Shown here: positions 10,361 through 59,883 of the stretch, piece after piece | Layout: each line of letters opens with the position of its first letter | How positions within the stretch are numbered: the first letter of the stretch is position 1 | NCBI RefSeq assembly: GCF_013402815.2 | Contig: NZ_CP058601.1 | Span: 3,720,001 to 3,784,000, forward strand | Source: Natrinema halophilum | GTDB lineage: Archaea; Halobacteriota; Halobacteria; Halobacteriales; Natrialbaceae | Direction: 5' to 3' | DNA length: 64,000 nt | Program-made: the position numbers and the translations under genes | The notes under the pieces: model-generated | Databases searched by the model: none | The model's input: only the letters and a program-made list of their open reading frames with translations | What the model was told of the DNA's origin: nothing

Positions 10361-12121
10361 ACCACAGCGGATTGATAGCTTATCGTCACACAGAAAAAAC
10401 CGTGACAACTGCAGCCGCTCAATCTTCGACTGATAGCCGGTCCTCTACTGGACTGACGTCCCTTGCGGTGATCGTGTCTTTTTGTTGTTATTCTGTCGGT
10501 GAACGCGAACTCACCGTCTCGCTGTCTAACTGACGCCCGCTGGTGATATCCGACTCGCGTCAACCCGTCGGGTTCGATCGCAAAGGCGTCACGGTCGAGC
10601 ACGAAAACGACGACTCAGGCGAGACGAGAGAGCAAGCGGCTGTGATCTCGGATTTCGTATAGCGATATTCGATATACGGTGGCCGGATAGTGATCGATGC
10701 GCCCTCTCGCCACGTTCCGCTGGCCGCTCTCGTCGGTGACGACGCGATAGCAGCCGTCTGATTTGTGCCGGAGAAGAACGCGGCCGAATCGTTCCAGTGA
10801 TACCCCCAACAACGAACGCCGAATGACCGACCGGCGGTATCAATCGAGACCGTTCGGTGTTGGTGTGGGAGGAGGAACATTCTCACCGGTCGCGATCAGC
10901 GACTGGAGGTGGGTGTCGGGACAGGTGACGTTGGGTATCTGTGGAAGCTGCCCCCTCGCTCCGTCACGAACGACGCCGTTGGCCGTCCGCTGTAATCGGA
11001 CATCTCTCGAGTATCAGTCGAGGACAAACGGTATTGGCCCTCTCCACGCCGTACCCGTCGTGGACCCCCATCATGGGATCGGCTGGTGCAGCCTTCGAGG
11101 TTGGAGCCCGCAGTTCCGACAGAACCGCCAGCATTCCGGAGAATCAACTCGATTTGACTCCATCGGGAGGGCTACGGCGATCGACGAAGTCGTCCGAAAA
11201 CTGAGGAATTCCGTGATCGGGAGAGACGAAGTCTCTCGGATGACTCCCTCCAGCAGGGCTCTTGGAAATCTCCGATTTTCTCGACATCGGGGGCGGCTTC
11301 TCTGGCACGCCGCTCGGTAACTACGGCGGGCCGCTTGCCCGCAGGTGCTGTTTGTCGACTCTGGCCTTCCCCTCGATTCGCGCTTGACGACACGGATATG
11401 CCTAATACCGTGTGTTTCACTTGGGACTACCCATTTGCCCATCAGGACGTGGTTCTCGAGGAATAGCGAATTATAGTTTGATCCGTCTCTTCCGGGACCG
11501 TAAACCCCGGGTGTAGCCTCGTCATCGACCCGTTTACGATCAGACGCGCGGTCGACGCCCATCCACACAATGAGATCGATTAGACATCTTCGTGACCGGC
11601 CGATGTGCAAAATAGTCGGCACAGAGTGTGGCTTTCGACTACCCTTCCTGGGAACTGTACTGGGCTGCCAACCTCGGCGTTTCGATTGCCTGAGTCGGAT
11701 CGGTCCGCTGACTGGGGGCCGGAGCGGCCGCTCTTTCTCGTTCTCTCCGGCCACGGCATTCGATAGCACCTGGCTCTGATTACGGTGACGGGATCGCCGT
11801 ATACCTGCCGCCGATTCGAAATCCGGGTGTCGATAGGACACCGACCGGCATCGACATCTCCCCGGTCGGACGACGATAGAACGCCGGTCGGGTGCCGATC
11901 GGACTGAGCGGCCGACCACGTCGGTAGCTGTGCCCAGCCTCACGGTTCCGCTACCCGTTACTAACTGGTGCTGTGCGCTCGAGATCGTCTCCGGCCGAAA
12001 CATAGAATCACCGATCGGCCGCCGGAGAGAATATGTCCCTCCGCATCGGCGCTAATAAATCGTATAATGGTATACCGAATCTCCGTTCGATATCGGAAAT
12101 TTCGGAACTACCCCGGCGTCG
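10361..12121. other. Gene-poor region upstream of orc1/cdc6
   Basis: About 1.76 kb without a recognisable gene. Open frames here are Arg/Ser-rich and look like chance frames of GC-rich DNA. One short minus-strand stretch near 10620-10800 has coding-like third positions (RVVTDESGQRNVARGRIDHY) but no recognised family. Near 11841-11892 the octamer CCGACCGG and its reverse complement CCGGTCGG occur repeatedly as short inverted repeats. The position beside an orc1/cdc6 gene makes it a candidate for a replication origin or a decayed segment, but I did not find convincing origin recognition boxes. Confidence 0.5.
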
Positions 12122-12127
12122 TTTAAG
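12122..12127 (+). promoter_or_regulatory. TATA box of orc1/cdc6
   Basis: TTTAAG, the classic haloarchaeal TATA core, ends 25 bp before the proposed GTG start and so supports a leaderless mRNA. Confidence 0.65.
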
Positions 12128-12152: not shown

Positions 12153-13217
12153 GTGATCGTCGACGGCCGCGTCTTGCGCGAGGATTTCGTGCCCAGCGAG
12201 GTGGTCCACCGCCACGACGAGGTGAACCTCCTCTCGGAGGCCCTCGAGCCACTGCTGTACGATGAGAGGCCGGATCCCGCCTTCCTCTTCGGGCCGACGG
12301 GCGTCGGCAAGACCTGTATCGCTCGCTACACGCTCGCACAGTTGCGCGAACAGGAGCCGACGGTGCGGGTCGCGTACGTCAACTGCTGGCAGGAGTACAC
12401 GCGCTTTCGGGTTCTGTACAGCATCCTCGAAGCGGTCGACCGTGCGGTCGACGTCCACCGGTCGACGCCGAAAGACGAACTATTCGACCGACTCTCCCGG
12501 GCGGATGATGGATCGATCGTCGTCATTCTCGACGAGGTCGATCAACTGGAGGAAACGAGCGCGCTGTACGATCTTCACCGGTTACCGCACGTCTCGCCCG
12601 TTTTGATCGCCAATCGCGAGGAAGAGCTATTCGCGAGCTTCGACGATCGAGTGAGATCGCGGTTCCACGCCGGCACTCGAGTCCGATTCGACCGATACGG
12701 CACCGCCGAGCTCGCGGCGATCCTCGCGAACCGATCCGAAAAGGCCCTCGAACCGGGTGTCGTAACCGACGCGCAGCTTCGAACGATCGCCGACGCCGCG
12801 TCGGGCGACGCGCGCGTCGGTCTCGGCATCCTCCGGTCGGCCGCTCGCCGTGCGGAGCGCCAGGGACTCGCGTCGATCACCACCAGTGCACTCGAGGCGG
12901 CAATTCCGGATGCCCGGACGGCGATCCGTCGGAAGACCGTCGAGGGTCTGATCGAGCACCAGCGAGTGCTGTACGACGTGATCGCCGAGGCGGGCGAGAT
13001 CGAGCCAGGCGACCTCTACGACGTGTACGAGAAGCGAGTCGAGGAGCCGAAAACGAACCGGACGCTGCGAAATTACCTGACGAAGATGGTTCACTACGAC
13101 CTGATCGAAGCCGTCGGCGAGCGGCGCGGACGGACGTACCGCCTCGTCGACGAAAACAGCGAAATCACCGGGCAGGACGAAGAGTCGGAGATCGATCCGG
13201 CAAGCGACAGCCGGTAG
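12153..13217 (+). CDS. orc1: Orc1/Cdc6 replication initiator
   Basis: AAA+ ATPase that binds origins and loads the MCM helicase. From the GTG start it has 354 residues. Visible: Walker A (FGPTGVGKTCIARY), the archaeal Orc1 signature YVNCWQEYTRFRVLYSILE, Walker B (IVVILDEVDQLEE), sensor 1 (VLIANREEEL), Arg finger region (RVRSRF) and a C-terminal winged helix (RKTVEGLIEHQRVLYDVI to RTYRLVDE). The upstream frame is open for 40 more codons but lacks conservation, and the TATA box sits within it. The GTG start gives IVDGRVLREDFVP, the usual N-terminus. Haloarchaea carry many paralogues; whether this one drives a nearby origin is open. Confidence 0.93.
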   Translation: MIVDGRVLREDFVPSEVVHRHDEVNLLSEALEPLLYDERPDPAFLFGPTGVGKTCIARYTLAQLREQEPTVRVAYVNCWQEYTRFRVLYSILEAVDRAVDVHRSTPKDELFDRLSRADDGSIVVILDEVDQLEETSALYDLHRLPHVSPVLIANREEELFASFDDRVRSRFHAGTRVRFDRYGTAELAAILANRSEKALEPGVVTDAQLRTIADAASGDARVGLGILRSAARRAERQGLASITTSALEAAIPDARTAIRRKTVEGLIEHQRVLYDVIAEAGEIEPGDLYDVYEKRVEEPKTNRTLRNYLTKMVHYDLIEAVGERRGRTYRLVDENSEITGQDEESEIDPASDSR

Positions 13218-13300: not shown

Positions 13301-13480
13301 ATGGTATGGTTCGAGTTACTCGTTCCCGACGAACTGGCGGTCGATGCGGTCCGAAATAGGCTGGCTGACGCCGGTGTTTCGATCTCCGAGATCGGGACCG
13401 AACGCGGCTTCGAGGTCGCAGATCCCGACGGGAACAGGATTCGGATTCGGATTCGGATTCGGATTCGGTCCGATGCGTGA
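13301..13480 (+). pseudogene. VOC/glyoxalase-family C-terminal fragment
   Basis: About 60 residues matching the second half of a VOC domain: VWFELLVPDELAVDAVRNRL, then ADAGVSISEIG and GFEVADPDGNRIRI, the last being the classic DPDGN strand. The N-terminal betaalphabetabetabeta module is missing. The end runs into an Ile-Arg repeat coded by a hexanucleotide repeat. Probably a decayed gene, although expression as a tiny protein cannot be excluded. Confidence 0.65.
13439..13468. repeat. ATTCGG hexanucleotide repeat, five units
   Basis: Five perfect units in tandem at the 3' end of the VOC fragment, coding (Ile-Arg)5. It looks like slippage expansion of the DPDGNRIRI codons. Confidence 0.95.
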
Positions 13481-13628
13481 TCACACGGGCGCGTTTCGGA
13501 ATCGGAATCGGTAACTCGAAATCGGCCCCGAGAAGCGCTACAATCGCCTATCCCGGCGATTAACTGAGTTTCGGAATTATCGGAAAACGGGTTCCGCCGC
13601 TTATGGGCGTTCGCTCTAGCCCTCACGT

Positions 13629-14333
13629 ATGCACCGACTCGAACTCGAGCCCGGAGTAACGCTGCTTAACGTTCCGTCGCCGCGGTCGGGAATCGTTCAT
13701 CGGCTGGTCTGTGATCGGCTCGCCGACAGCGATGGTGGGGCGGCCTACTGGATCGATGCGCGAAACGCGGCGTCGACTCACGCCCTGTACGACTGTGCCT
13801 CGAGCCCGCGTGTTTTCGAGGGGCTGCGGATTGCGCGGGCGTTTACCGCCTACCAGCACCATTCGCTGGTGCGGGCGGTCGCCCGACGGGCAGGGCCGAC
13901 GACCGCGTTGCTCGTCGCGCCGAACGTCGCCAGTCTCTACCGGGACGATGACCTCACGGCCTGGGAGCGCGAGGACCTGCTGGCCGCGACCCTCGAGATC
14001 CTGTCCGAACTGGGGGGGATACTCGACTGCCCGGTGTTGCTTTCGAGCGCCAGACGCGGCGGCCGTGACGGGTGCGACCGTACCACCGACGCCGCAACCG
14101 GTGCAGCTTCCGACTACGCCGATACGGTCATCGATTGCGTTCGCACGCGCGAGGGACTTCGACTCGAGGCCGCGGGTGACGGCGCGGATTCGGCGACCGC
14201 GACGGCGGGGTATTGGCACGGAACCGTGTGGCAGACGACCATCCCTTACTGGGTCGAACGCTGTGGTGCCGTCGATGCAATCGATCCCGTCATCACCGCC
14301 CACGACCGGGGGCTGCTCGAGGTGAGCGGCTGA
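13629..14333 (+). CDS. RecA/RadB-like protein without canonical Walker A
   Basis: 234 residues. The layout (GVTLLNVPSPRSG near the N-terminus, AYWIDARNAASTHALYDCA, then LRIARAFTAYQHHSLVRAV) resembles RecA-superfamily ATPases such as RadB/KaiC, in which a P-loop is followed by an acidic strand and a DNA-contact loop. The P-loop lysine is missing, so ATP hydrolysis is doubtful. The last base of its TGA is the first of the next gene's ATG, and that gene overlaps a PolB2-like polymerase, so all three are coupled. A RecA-like partner next to PolB2 recalls mutasome modules. Fold assignment is my inference from pattern, not from a search. Confidence 0.62.
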   Translation: MHRLELEPGVTLLNVPSPRSGIVHRLVCDRLADSDGGAAYWIDARNAASTHALYDCASSPRVFEGLRIARAFTAYQHHSLVRAVARRAGPTTALLVAPNVASLYRDDDLTAWEREDLLAATLEILSELGGILDCPVLLSSARRGGRDGCDRTTDAATGAASDYADTVIDCVRTREGLRLEAAGDGADSATATAGYWHGTVWQTTIPYWVERCGAVDAIDPVITAHDRGLLEVSG

Positions 14334-14647
14334 TGGGCCGAACGAACCCGACCTACCGCGACGCCCTTCGGGACCTCGAGTCGGAGTGGGAGCCGATGCG
14401 CCGGGCGCTGCGGCGGGAGTACCAGGACGACTTCGATCGGCTGTTCGACCGGGCCCGGGAGTTCGCCGACGCGGCGGGGTACGCTAATCCGACGCGGCCC
14501 GAGCGCGCGCTCGTGCTGTCGCTGTTGCTCGCCCACGAGGTCGAACTGCGCAGACTGCGCGCGGAACTCGCGGCACTCGAGGATGAGGGCTGCTGTACCA
14601 GCTCCACCGCGGATGCGGCCGATTCCGCCGCGGATGCAGGAGAATGA
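14333..14647 (+). CDS. Small charged helical protein of the PolB2 operon
   Basis: 104 residues, rich in Arg, Glu and Ala, predicted almost all alpha-helical (DALRDLESEWEPMRRALRRE, AHEVELRRLRAELAALEDEG, the latter coiled-coil-like), with a Cys pair (GCCTSS) before an Ala/Asp tail. No family recognised. The start is fixed by TGATG coupling to the RecA-like gene, and the stop overlaps the polymerase start (ATGA). Its place between the two suggests an adaptor or DNA-binding partner; this is inference. Confidence 0.7.
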   Translation: MGRTNPTYRDALRDLESEWEPMRRALRREYQDDFDRLFDRAREFADAAGYANPTRPERALVLSLLLAHEVELRRLRAELAALEDEGCCTSSTADAADSAADAGE

Positions 14648-16848
14648 GCCCGTACACGTTCGAGTTCGAGGACGGTGTCGTCCGTGAGTGGACGTTGACC
14701 GAGGAGGGGGCCGAGCCGACGACCGTCGCGGACTACGCGCCGTCGCTGTTCGTCGCCGGACCCGACGCCGCGCTCGCGGACCTCCAAGACCGTCTCGAGA
14801 CCGATCCGAAGGTCCTCGGGACCCGAACCGAGCAGTGGGCGACGAGCCTCCACGAAGCCCACGCAGACGATCGCAGCCGCGTCCTGCGAGTCGATGGAGG
14901 GCGCGTCGATGAGGTTCGGACGCTGGCTCGAGAGATCCGGGGCATCCACGAGCGCGAGACGCACGCTCCCGGAACGTTCCGGCTGTTCGACGTGGACCTC
15001 GCGCCGGGCTTTCGCTACTGTCTTGATCGGGACATCGATCCGACACCGGACCGGGACCTGCGAACGCTTCGACTCTCCCTCGACGAGGCTGCGCTGGCCG
15101 ATGGCGATATCTCCGCGCTGGCGCGTGCTGGCGAACCGATCGACGGCGACGAACCGCAGGTGCTCCGAACGCTCCGGCACCACCTCGAGCGGCGGGATCC
15201 AGACGTTCTCGTGGTGAGCCACGCCGAGCTGGTACCGACGCTCGAGCGGCGGGCCGAGACGCTGGGAATCGAATTCCACCTCGGCCGCCTGCCGGGGATG
15301 ACGAAACTGGCGAGCGAGAACACGTACGCGAGCTACGGACAGGTGGGCCACTCACCGGCACGGTACCGCGTGCCGGGTCGAGCGATACTCGATACGTCGA
15401 ACAGCTTCCTCTGGCACCAGTCGGGGCTGGCGGGGATCCGTTACATGGTCGAGCGAACGGGTCGGCCGCTGCAGGAAGCCGCCTGGGGGAGTATCGGGGC
15501 GCTGTTGACCTCGAGACAGATTCGGCTCGCCCGCCGGCGGAAGGGCGTCCTCGCCCCGTGGAACAAGTGGGAGCCGGAGCGGTTCACTGACGTCGAGACG
15601 CTGCACGCGGCCGACCGCGGCGGCTTTACGTTCTCGCCCGAGGTCGGCTTTCACGAGGACGTCCACGAGATCGACTTCGCCTCGCTGTATCCGCGGATCA
15701 TCTGTGAGCACAACGTGAGTCCGGAAACGGTCGGCTGCGACTGCGACGGCGCCGACATCGGCCACGCTGAGACGAATCCTGTTCCCGAGATTGGCTACGA
15801 GATCTGCGAAACGGACGGGTTTCTCCCCGCCGTCCTCGAGCCGCTGATCTCGGACCGGGCTGCTATCAAGCGGCGGCTTGGCGACGATCCATCCGACGAC
15901 GAAGCCGCCAGGCTGCGGGCCGAATCGGGCGCGATCAAGTGGGTCCTCGTCTCCTCGTTCGGCTACCAGGGGTACCGAAACGCCAAGTTCGGCAGGATCG
16001 AGTGCCACGAGGCGATCAACGCGTACGCACGCAAAATCGCCCTGACGGCCAAACGGCGACTCGAAGAGGCAGGCTGGCGGATCGTCCACGGCATCGTCGA
16101 CAGCCTCTGGGTGACGCCACGGGGTGACGAGCCGGAGCCGCTCGAGACGGTGACGGCTGACATTTCCGAAACCGTGGGGATTCCGCTCGAGCACGACGGC
16201 AACTACGAGTGGGTGTGTTTTGTTCCATTGCGCGACTCGATCGGAAGCGGCGGTTCCGGCGGGAGTCGCGCTGGTGGTCGTCGTGCCGGGGGGAGCGCGT
16301 CGGCAGGCGCGCTCACGAAGTATTTCGGCAAGCGTTCGAGTGGCGGATACAAGTTTCGGGGGATCGAACTGCGCCAGCGGAGTACCCCGGCCTTCGTCGC
16401 GGACAGTCAGCGCGCGTTTATCGAGGCGCTCGACCGCGAACGCGATCCCGAGGCCGTCTGTGACGTTCTCGGCCGACGGCTGAGCGAGCTTCGGGAGGGG
16501 ACCGTCGATCCGGCCGATCTCACCGTTACGAAACGCGTCTCGAGGCGCCTCGCCGACTACAGCCAGCAGACTCATTCCGCCGCGGCACTCCGGCGGTACG
16601 AGCGCCGGGGGATCGACCGTCACCCCGGTCAGTCGGTCGAGTACGTCGTTGCAGACGACGACGCCCGCGGTCCGGAGCGCGTTCGACTCGCGCTCGAGGA
16701 GCCGCGAACGTACGACGCCGACTACTACGCGACGTTACTGGTTCGAGCCTGCGAGAGCGTCCTGTCGCCGCTGGGCTGGGACCGATCCCGAATCCGGCAC
16801 TCGCTGCGCGACGGCAGGACGGTCCGACTGTCGACGTTTACCGACTGA
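14644..16848 (+). CDS. PolB2-like family B DNA polymerase, catalytically altered
   Basis: 734 residues, shorter than replicative PolB. Motif A is intact (D344-F-A-S-L-Y-P). Motif B keeps K432 but reads KWVLVSSFGYQG. Motif C reads H482-G-I-V-D486-S instead of YGDTDS, so the first of the two catalytic aspartates is Ile. The exonuclease I position shows D116-V-D118 instead of DxE. Archaeal PolB2 proteins are known for such substitutions, and the Sulfolobus member (Dpo2) is linked to DNA-damage response. It is the last gene of a three-gene unit with four-base overlap. A gapless C-terminal thumb region follows, so the protein is not truncated. Function could be lesion bypass or a structural role. 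Confidence 0.85.
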   Translation: MSPYTFEFEDGVVREWTLTEEGAEPTTVADYAPSLFVAGPDAALADLQDRLETDPKVLGTRTEQWATSLHEAHADDRSRVLRVDGGRVDEVRTLAREIRGIHERETHAPGTFRLFDVDLAPGFRYCLDRDIDPTPDRDLRTLRLSLDEAALADGDISALARAGEPIDGDEPQVLRTLRHHLERRDPDVLVVSHAELVPTLERRAETLGIEFHLGRLPGMTKLASENTYASYGQVGHSPARYRVPGRAILDTSNSFLWHQSGLAGIRYMVERTGRPLQEAAWGSIGALLTSRQIRLARRRKGVLAPWNKWEPERFTDVETLHAADRGGFTFSPEVGFHEDVHEIDFASLYPRIICEHNVSPETVGCDCDGADIGHAETNPVPEIGYEICETDGFLPAVLEPLISDRAAIKRRLGDDPSDDEAARLRAESGAIKWVLVSSFGYQGYRNAKFGRIECHEAINAYARKIALTAKRRLEEAGWRIVHGIVDSLWVTPRGDEPEPLETVTADISETVGIPLEHDGNYEWVCFVPLRDSIGSGGSGGSRAGGRRAGGSASAGALTKYFGKRSSGGYKFRGIELRQRSTPAFVADSQRAFIEALDRERDPEAVCDVLGRRLSELREGTVDPADLTVTKRVSRRLADYSQQTHSAAALRRYERRGIDRHPGQSVEYVVADDDARGPERVRLALEEPRTYDADYYATLLVRACESVLSPLGWDRSRIRHSLRDGRTVRLSTFTD

Positions 16849-17477
16849 CGACCGGAGCCGATCCGTCCGCCGTCGCAACGATCACGCCGAACTGAGAGTC
16901 CATCCAGATTGAAGACCGGCGCCAGGTTTACACGGTTTGCCGGCGATTTACGTTACACTATGACGTCCTCGGTGTCACCAGTTCCGCACCGTGATCGCGC
17001 TCGGTGGCGGACGACTATCGCGATACTCGAGCGACGGACGGCTATCGCGATACTCGAGCGACGGACGGCTATCGCGATACTCGAGCGGCGGCCACTCGAG
17101 TCAACAGCGGTTCGCGAGGTTGGGTGCGCCGAGATCGACGCAGATGCGCTCTCAAAGATCCCCGGCGATTACGATCCGCTCTATCGGTCGGTGCGGAACC
17201 CCACGTATATCCGTATTCGTCGAGAAAGAGAGAGCAACATGGACGCTTTCACTTTGCAGTCGAGGAATCGGATCCGAGCCGGACGACTCGGATCGCGTTT
17301 CCCGAGCGCTCGGTCGACTCACCGCTCTCGAGAACGCCGCGGAATCGGAACTGACCTCAGACCGACTGGCAGACCTGACCGCGGACCGACCAGCAAGACC
17401 GGCCGTAATCGACGGGATCACCGCCCCACCCACGAAGGCCCGCCACCACAGCCCCGGAGACGGATACCTGACGACCA
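16849..17477. other. Intergenic region between polymerase and response regulator
   Basis: About 630 bp with no recognisable gene; the open frames are Arg-rich and shift between frames. It holds a 27-bp direct repeat array (listed separately). No clear TATA box was located for the downstream regulator. Confidence 0.6.
17008..17088. repeat. 27-bp direct repeat, three units
   Basis: Three consecutive near-identical 27-bp units (core CTATCGCGATACTCGAGCG), differing at one base in the first and one in the last. Each holds the palindromes TATCGCGATA and CTCGAG, so each unit has internal dyad symmetry, as binding sites often do. Confidence 0.9.
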
Positions 17478-58302: not shown

Positions 58303-59883
58303 ATGAAACGGGGTAGACTACTCGCGGTCCTCGTCCTGGTGGTCCTCTCGGGGTGTGCCCTCCCCGGCGACACCGGCGGATTCGACGCTGATCGTGAACT
58401 CGGGCACGTCGGTGACTACGCGTCCGGTGACGATTTCACGTTCGATACGAGCAACGGCCTCACCCGAAACCAGCTCGAGGCAGTCAAGTACCGTGCGATG
58501 GCTCGGATCGAGGTCGTACGCGGGTTGAAGTTCAGCCGTGACGTCGAACTCGAGGTAGTGAGCCGAGCGGAGTACCGCAACCGGCGGGCGGGTACCGAGG
58601 GGAACGCATCAGCGTTCAGGAACGAACTCTGGCGCGGCGCGTTCGTCGTCGACGGAGAGACGGATGTCGGGCGCGCCTTCGACGATCTTTACGGTGACTC
58701 CGTCCAGGGCTACTACGTGAACGACCGGGTCGTGATCGTTTCCGACGACACCGACCGAATCCGAATCGACAGGTGGGTTCTGGTCCACGAGCTGACCCAC
58801 GCATTGCAGGATCAACAGTTCGGAATCGCCCGCGAGAGCGATCGCGTAGACGGCGTTCGTGCCGAGAACGGCTTGATCGAAGGGGAGGCGAACTACGTTT
58901 CTCGGCAGTACGATCGCCGATGCGGGGCGGAGTGGCAGTGCATGCCCGAACGGCGGGGACCGACGGCTTCCGGCGAGACGCTCTCCGATCGACCGTTCAA
59001 CGTCGGGCTCTTCCTCTCGATCTACGCGCCGTACGCGGAAGGGACGCCGTTCGTCGCCGATCTTCACGAGCGCGACGGCTGGGACTCGGTCGATCGAGCT
59101 CACGGAAACCCGCCCCGTAGCACGTCCCAGTTGATCCATCCGGACCACTATCCCGACAGGGAACCGATCGACGTCGCGATCCCGGATCGTTCGAGCGACG
59201 ATTGGCGCCCGATCACGAAAGGAACCGACGGGAGTAACGGTGGTGCCCCCGTAGCCCGCACGGAGACGCTCGGCGAGGCGACCCTGTTCGCGACGCTGTG
59301 GGCAAACGGTGTGATCGACCGCCCGCTCACTGCGGGCACGTCCGAATTCGCGACGTACAACTATTCCCACCCCGCGACCGCCGGGTGGGCCGGGGACGCC
59401 GTCCAGGTCTACCGAAATATGGCGAATCGAAACAGAACGGGACACGTCTGGCGGCTCACCTGGGACAGTCCGGCAGATGCGGCCGCGTTCGCCGACGCGT
59501 ATCGGACGCTCCTCACACGTCGCGGAGCAGAGATCGTCGAATCCACGGCGGTTACAGAGAGGGACGTGTATCGAATTCCGGACGGGACGCAATTCGCTGG
59601 CGCGTATCGTATCGACGTGACCAGCGACACGGTCGAGATCGTCGGCGCACCGTCGGTCGACGACATTGCGGCGATCCACGCCGCGGGGCCGGTGTCAGAA
59701 CAGAACGGGTCGCTCGAGACAGCGTCCGCCCTCGAACCGGCTACACCCATTTCGTCATCCCGATCTGAAGACGATATCGAACCGCAGGCAGTGGAAGGAT
59801 ACAGCAGTCCTCGAGATTTCGCGGGTAGAACCGGGACGTCACAGCGGACCTCGGGGACGACTCGAGCGGCGGTAGACGGGTAG
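58303..59883 (+). CDS. Hvo_1808-family lipoprotein paralogue
   Basis: 526 residues. N-terminal lipobox (LVLVVLSGCALPGD; Cys at residue 18 or so) indicates a lipid-anchored protein. The central part matches its upstream neighbour (KYRAMARIEVVRGL, H162-ELT-H166 in LVHELTHALQDQQFG, ENGLIEGEANYVSRQYDRRC). The tail is low-complexity (Ser/Thr/Arg) and has no PGF-CTERM. So two tandem paralogues use different surface anchors. Likely arose by duplication; function as metallopeptidase is inferred from the motif. Confidence 0.86.
   Translation: MKRGRLLAVLVLVVLSGCALPGDTGGFDADRELGHVGDYASGDDFTFDTSNGLTRNQLEAVKYRAMARIEVVRGLKFSRDVELEVVSRAEYRNRRAGTEGNASAFRNELWRGAFVVDGETDVGRAFDDLYGDSVQGYYVNDRVVIVSDDTDRIRIDRWVLVHELTHALQDQQFGIARESDRVDGVRAENGLIEGEANYVSRQYDRRCGAEWQCMPERRGPTASGETLSDRPFNVGLFLSIYAPYAEGTPFVADLHERDGWDSVDRAHGNPPRSTSQLIHPDHYPDREPIDVAIPDRSSDDWRPITKGTDGSNGGAPVARTETLGEATLFATLWANGVIDRPLTAGTSEFATYNYSHPATAGWAGDAVQVYRNMANRNRTGHVWRLTWDSPADAAAFADAYRTLLTRRGAEIVESTAVTERDVYRIPDGTQFAGAYRIDVTSDTVEIVGAPSVDDIAAIHAAGPVSEQNGSLETASALEPATPISSSRSEDDIEPQAVEGYSSPRDFAGRTGTSQRTSGTTRAAVDG

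Follow-up and report, generated by a model that had tools for sequence, protein, structure and literature searches.

A haloarchaeal iRadA-PPB2-PolB2 gene set shares an operator-like direct repeat with the adjacent orc1/cdc6 gene

What do three overlapping genes of Natrinema halophilum, coding for a RecA-like protein, a small helical protein and an altered DNA polymerase, form together, and how is their expression controlled? The genes are located on the forward strand of a 64,000-nucleotide stretch of contig NZ_CP058601.1, which is called the window here and to which all coordinates refer unless a contig is named. They code for iRadA (13629-14333; 234 aa), PPB2 (14333-14647; 104 aa) and PolB2 (14644-16848; 734 aa). 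Adjacent genes overlap by exactly 1 and 4 bases, in agreement with the first-pass annotation of this DNA: the ATG of PPB2 (14333-14335) lies inside TGATG, and that of PolB2 inside ATGA. Of 20 closer-clade relatives (PolB2 identity 59-88%), 18 keep the 1-base overlap and 16 the 4-base overlap. Conservation of gene order in haloarchaea, which the annotation had put forward as a check, was complete, as the order iRadA, PPB2, PolB2 on a single strand was found in 39 of 39 other loci as well as in the window. The overlaps are therefore not due to chance. The three genes are probably co-translated via these overlaps, and the earlier view that the products are made together is supported at the level of co-expression. 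A 27-bp tandem repeat (3.1 copies, 96%) is located downstream of PolB2 (17008-17091).

The first protein has the RadA/Rad51 fold. Pfam and NCBIfam contained no match to it; a profile of its family matched RadA structures (E = 2.5e-11), and its AlphaFold model (mean pLDDT 84.8) matched DMC1/RadA/Rad51 (E = 4.6e-11), confirming that it is RecA-superfamily-like as first described. The N-terminal domain of RadA is missing and so is Walker A, since VPSPRSGIVHRL occupies the P-loop position where GxxGxGKT is expected. A search for iRadA in phage records gave no match.

The middle protein likewise matched nothing in Pfam or NCBIfam, and a fold search against solved structures returned nothing significant. 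Its predicted model consists of three helices. The N-terminus reads MGRTNPTYR, with M1, G2, R3, T4 and R9 invariant in 36 sequences, and MGRT, or VGRT resulting from GTG initiation, opens PPB2 in every locus read. This diagnostic start identifies the protein, to which no recognised family had been assigned, as an arCOG07300-like PPB2. The accompanying suggestion of a clamp is unlikely, because published models show a trimer with an N-terminal arm bridging PolB2 and iRadA. Orphan iRadA genes starting with MGRNT were considered as carriers of the PPB2 arm and dropped, as their start varies (MGWNT and MGTNT elsewhere).

The third protein scored 848.8 bits with NCBIfam NF004418 (cut-off 692) and carries HGIVDS in motif C instead of YxDTDS, so that IVD replaces DTD; the description as an altered family B polymerase was correct. 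Operons of PolB2, arCOG07300 and an inactivated RadA (arCOG07763) have been reported, haloarchaea included, together with an arORC2 gene next to them and further copies made up of two genes (Makarova 2014, PMC4104785). More recently, the names PPB2 and iRadA were given and a heteropentamer of PolB2, iRadA and a PPB2 trimer was modelled in other species, in which the MGRT arm meets the D(K/R) motif of PolB2 (Timinskas 2025, PMC11791011). Judged by its sequences, the trio is the full iRadA-PPB2-PolB2 set, the published 'PolB2 mutasome' of archaea and bacteria. All tested sequence-level features of the mutasome were found, namely the PolB2 type, PPB2 with MGRT, Arg3 and Arg9, iRadA, adjacency of the genes and the D(K/R) motif. 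The composition, at first thought to be little described, is thus known from the haloarchaeal sets of 2014 and the complex model of 2025. The link drawn to the PolB2/Dpo2 loci of Sulfolobus is supported.

What had been overlooked is an orc1/cdc6-family gene directly upstream on the same strand and a promoter repeat common to this gene and the trio. The gene (12153-13217, +; 354 aa) scored 197 bits with TIGR02928, above the cut-off. Its true start is probably GTG 12153, since relatives keep the start VIVDGRVL and the spacing to the repeat; the ATG chosen by the ORF caller (12033) lies upstream of the promoter repeat. An operator-like direct repeat CGGAA-N4-CGGAA is located at 12094-12107 (+), 59 bp ahead of the GTG, followed 15 bp later by the TATA-like sequence TTTA (12122-12125, +). 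The trio promoter contains the same type of repeat, CGGAATTATCGGAA (13572-13585, +), at -57 from the ATG, and 15 bp after it the TATA box TTAT (13601-13604, +) at -28, indicating that the transcript is probably leaderless. At both genes the element lies upstream of the TATA box, as in an Orc1-2-type regulon. Exactly two repeat matches exist in the entire window, and these are the two promoters. A cluster of half-sites, TTTCGGAATCGGAATCGG, is located further upstream (13494-13511, +) at -135 from the trio ATG. The short ORF between orc and the trio has weak similarity to glyoxalase, and a perfect GGATTC hexamer repeat (5.3 copies; 13437-13468) lies near its 3' end.

The arrangement is conserved in the clade. 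CGGAA-N4-CGGAA was present in 17 of 21 trio promoters compared to 0.09 expected from dinucleotide-preserving shuffles, and in 14 of 17 orc promoters compared to 0.11 expected. At the trio it begins 57-62 bp ahead of the start codon and is followed after about 15 bp by TTAT; at orc1/cdc6 it is located 57-59 bp ahead of the start in the window and in relatives. The half-site TTNCGGAA near -135 was found in 18 of 21 clade loci versus 0.4 in shuffles. We scanned 29 genomes of the genus for the repeat pattern combined with a TATA box, using the reversed pattern as control. The full pattern was rare: about 60 rows were listed, corresponding to approx. 45 to 50 distinct places because some rows are one place at two gap lengths, and the reversed control gave 3 matches. 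Annotation of 60 distinct matches from the genus and class scans placed 23 within 90 bp before an orc gene, 12 before iRadA and 3 before other parts of the set, nearly all of them at 51-64 bp. Several of the other 22 matches lie at the end of a contig or precede a broken orc gene, and others resemble chance. Taken together, the shuffles, the reversed-pattern control and the match annotation rule out that the repeat is a chance or general promoter feature, as most annotated matches precede orc or iRadA at a fixed distance. An element of the radA1 type, published as TTTCACTTTCA from Halobacterium, is not what the trio promoters conserve; a near match to it exists upstream of the radA gene of this genome. 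No description of the CGGAA repeat was found in the searched literature, which covered few subscription journals, and the operator common to the trio and orc1/cdc6 is apparently a new element.

The N. halophilum genome contains five matches, which belong to the orc gene, the trio and three extra iRadA-PPB2 pairs lacking PolB2 (C1:631682, C2:147633 and C3:3511; L124, L125 and L126), each with the repeat in its promoter. Their PPB2 proteins start with MGKT instead of MGRT. The C3 pair is located near ParA-like and tail-fibre-like genes. Contig C2 also carries a C-terminal PolB2 remnant near orc-like genes (58382-58864; L074) with an open frame of 166 aa, probably a decayed copy of a second PolB2 clade. 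Divergent orc genes of the plasmid type (L178, L179, L186, L176 and others) lack the direct repeat and have the palindromic TTTCCGGAAA instead, and iRadA promoters at plasmid-type loci contain CGGAAAC-type variants, as if operator and regulator had diverged together.

An alternative reading is that the repeat works constitutively in the promoter, or that the regulator binding there has nothing to do with Orc1/Cdc6 or with DNA damage. In three genomes (G111, G114 and G117) the trio repeat is kept and an unlinked orc orthologue has none, so that autoregulation of orc is not universal; unlinked orc promoters of genus g24 without the repeat favour the alternative. The same applies to four genomes (L127, L128, L129 and L130) in which repeat and TATA box lie 216 bp before a gene that resembles a tyrosine recombinase by eye (MSDDLEPM...). 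In another genome (G032), the repeat is kept at an unlinked orc gene. The position of most annotated matches, at a fixed distance before orc or iRadA, speaks against the alternative. No operator match occurred in five genomes of the genus that lack a close orc orthologue, an observation that points in the same direction and is not independent evidence because the orc promoter itself is a site. On balance, we regard a constitutive or unrelated element as possible but somewhat doubtful.

We favour a damage-responsive operator. We infer that the trio products form a complex with translesion activity, that its synthesis is induced by DNA damage, and that the CGGAA repeat just upstream of both core promoters is most likely bound by the Orc1/Cdc6 protein or by a regulator that also controls orc1/cdc6. 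The bound factor would switch the trio on after damage, as Orc1-2 does in Sulfolobus. It is this parallel in layout that led us to propose a haloarchaeal Orc1/Cdc6, or the factor controlling it, as acting at the repeat, and by analogy it suggests a haloarchaeal damage regulon at CGGAA repeats. That the trio is a PolB2 mutasome for translesion synthesis whose damage-switched promoter is controlled by the repeat common to orc1/cdc6 appears likely to us. The wider proposal, that an Orc1/Cdc6 paralogue bound at CGGAA repeats would control itself, the PolB2 mutasome and the stand-alone iRadA-PPB2 pairs as a small SOS-like regulon, is put forward as evenly balanced. In the passages covered, UV arrays of Halobacterium list radA1 among the induced genes, with no mention of polB. 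They are a poor test of the trio, since polB2 on pNRC200 of strain NRC-1 has no adjoining iRadA or PPB2.

Would the polymerase be capable of synthesis? Motif A D344 and the last aspartate of motif C, D486, were invariant in 31 aligned PolB2 sequences, in which Ile or Leu takes the place of the first Asp of DTD. We take D344 and D486 to be the metal ligands of family B polymerases, in keeping with the reported activity of Sulfolobus Dpo2. Conserved acids were absent from the Exo I and Exo II places, and exonuclease motifs were unrecognisable in the aligned sequences. The DR motif (D324-R325), the D(K/R) contact of PPB2, was invariant in all 31. PolB2 would accordingly be a polymerase without exonuclease that probably extends DNA past lesions and mispaired ends; iRadA, a putative non-ATPase relative of RadA, would dock on it like a Rad51 neighbour, and the helical PPB2, as an oligomer, would insert its MGRT arm between the two near DNA. 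A different role was proposed in 2014, according to which the complex is catalytically weak or structural and helps Orc1/Cdc6 to initiate replication in an alternative way or to control origins instead of carrying out translesion synthesis. The linked orc1/cdc6 gene, the common operator and the loss of the first Asp of DTD agree with such a role. It is opposed by the invariance of both catalytic aspartates and by Sulfolobus Dpo2, a member of the same family with a similar motif C change, which is reported to be an active extender polymerase needed for damage-induced mutagenesis. We consider a role in replication initiation unlikely. The polB2 gene of H. volcanii has been reported to be deletable.

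Clamp-binding motifs in iRadA or PolB2 have been reported for part of the family. No clear PCNA-box-like motif was recognised at the C-terminus of iRadA. In PolB2, [LIM]xx[FYW] occurs within 8 residues of the C-terminus in 39 of 39 sequences and within 4 residues of the end in 27 of 31, compared to about 5% for internal stretches under the same rule. Its position is comparable to that in PolB3 of this genome, which ends with QKGLDSFM. Since the Gln of the PIP box is lost, LxxF/Y is a candidate for a weak clamp motif. A Gly/Ser/Arg-rich insertion at about residues 533-555 of PolB2 (16240-16310) varies in length in the closer clade and is absent from the plasmid clade.

PolB2-like sequences were detected in 265 of 391 Halobacteria genomes (E <= 1e-20), and many copies are plasmid-borne or decayed. 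That the trio is plasmid cargo which moves horizontally and has no fixed role in the cell, as this patchy distribution and the three extra iRadA-PPB2 pairs (two of which lie outside the main chromosome contig) might imply, is very unlikely given that chromosomal copies conserve the residues of active site and interface, the gene overlaps and the operator.

The trio thus represents a clear haloarchaeal case, with conserved order and key residues, of a recently modelled translesion complex. The common operator would matter more than the trio itself. In the literature searched, no regulator was found to be established for the DNA-damage response of euryarchaea; the operator offers one candidate protein by name, together with a short DNA site and a small, defined set of targets. 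If the proposal is true, an Orc1/Cdc6 regulator would be tied to mutagenesis in both Sulfolobus and haloarchaea.

Among known systems, the PolB2 mutasome, including the Dpo2 operon of Sulfolobus (PMC4104785, PMC11791011), consists of the same three families, and the gene order is that of bacteria and some archaea. Common features are the MGRT arm, the DR/DK motif, a degenerate DxD, inactivated exonuclease and RadA, and an orc1/cdc6 neighbour. In contrast to the published mutasome, iRadA of the trio has no clear C-terminal PCNA motif, PolB2 ends in a conserved LxxF/Y, some haloarchaeal PolB2 proteins contain the Gly/Ser/Arg-rich insertion, and the operator is unlike the element of Sulfolobus. 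Bacterial Pol V (UmuC-UmuD'2-RecA) and ImuA-ImuB-DnaE2 likewise combine a translesion polymerase with a RecA-fold partner and a small accessory protein. The polymerase families, however, are unrelated, and the trio contains no UmuD, ImuB or DnaE2: its sole polymerase belongs to family B, and both the Y-family-like ImuB and the C-family DnaE2 are absent. The likeness to ImuA-ImuB-DnaE2 in the first-pass annotation therefore holds as an analogy of architecture, and a relationship of the trio to ImuA/ImuB was rejected. As to regulation, the non-initiator Orc1/Cdc6 protein Orc1-2 of Sulfolobus drives the damage response via an ANTTTC element directly upstream of BRE and TATA box, its own promoter included (PMC9738581, PMC5817253), and the Sulfolobus PolB2 operon is damage-induced. 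The haloarchaeal locus resembles this system in having an Orc1/Cdc6-family gene and an element just upstream of the core promoter, again including the gene's own promoter, whereas the site is a CGGAA direct repeat with a 9-base period, known here from sequence, instead of ANTTTC.
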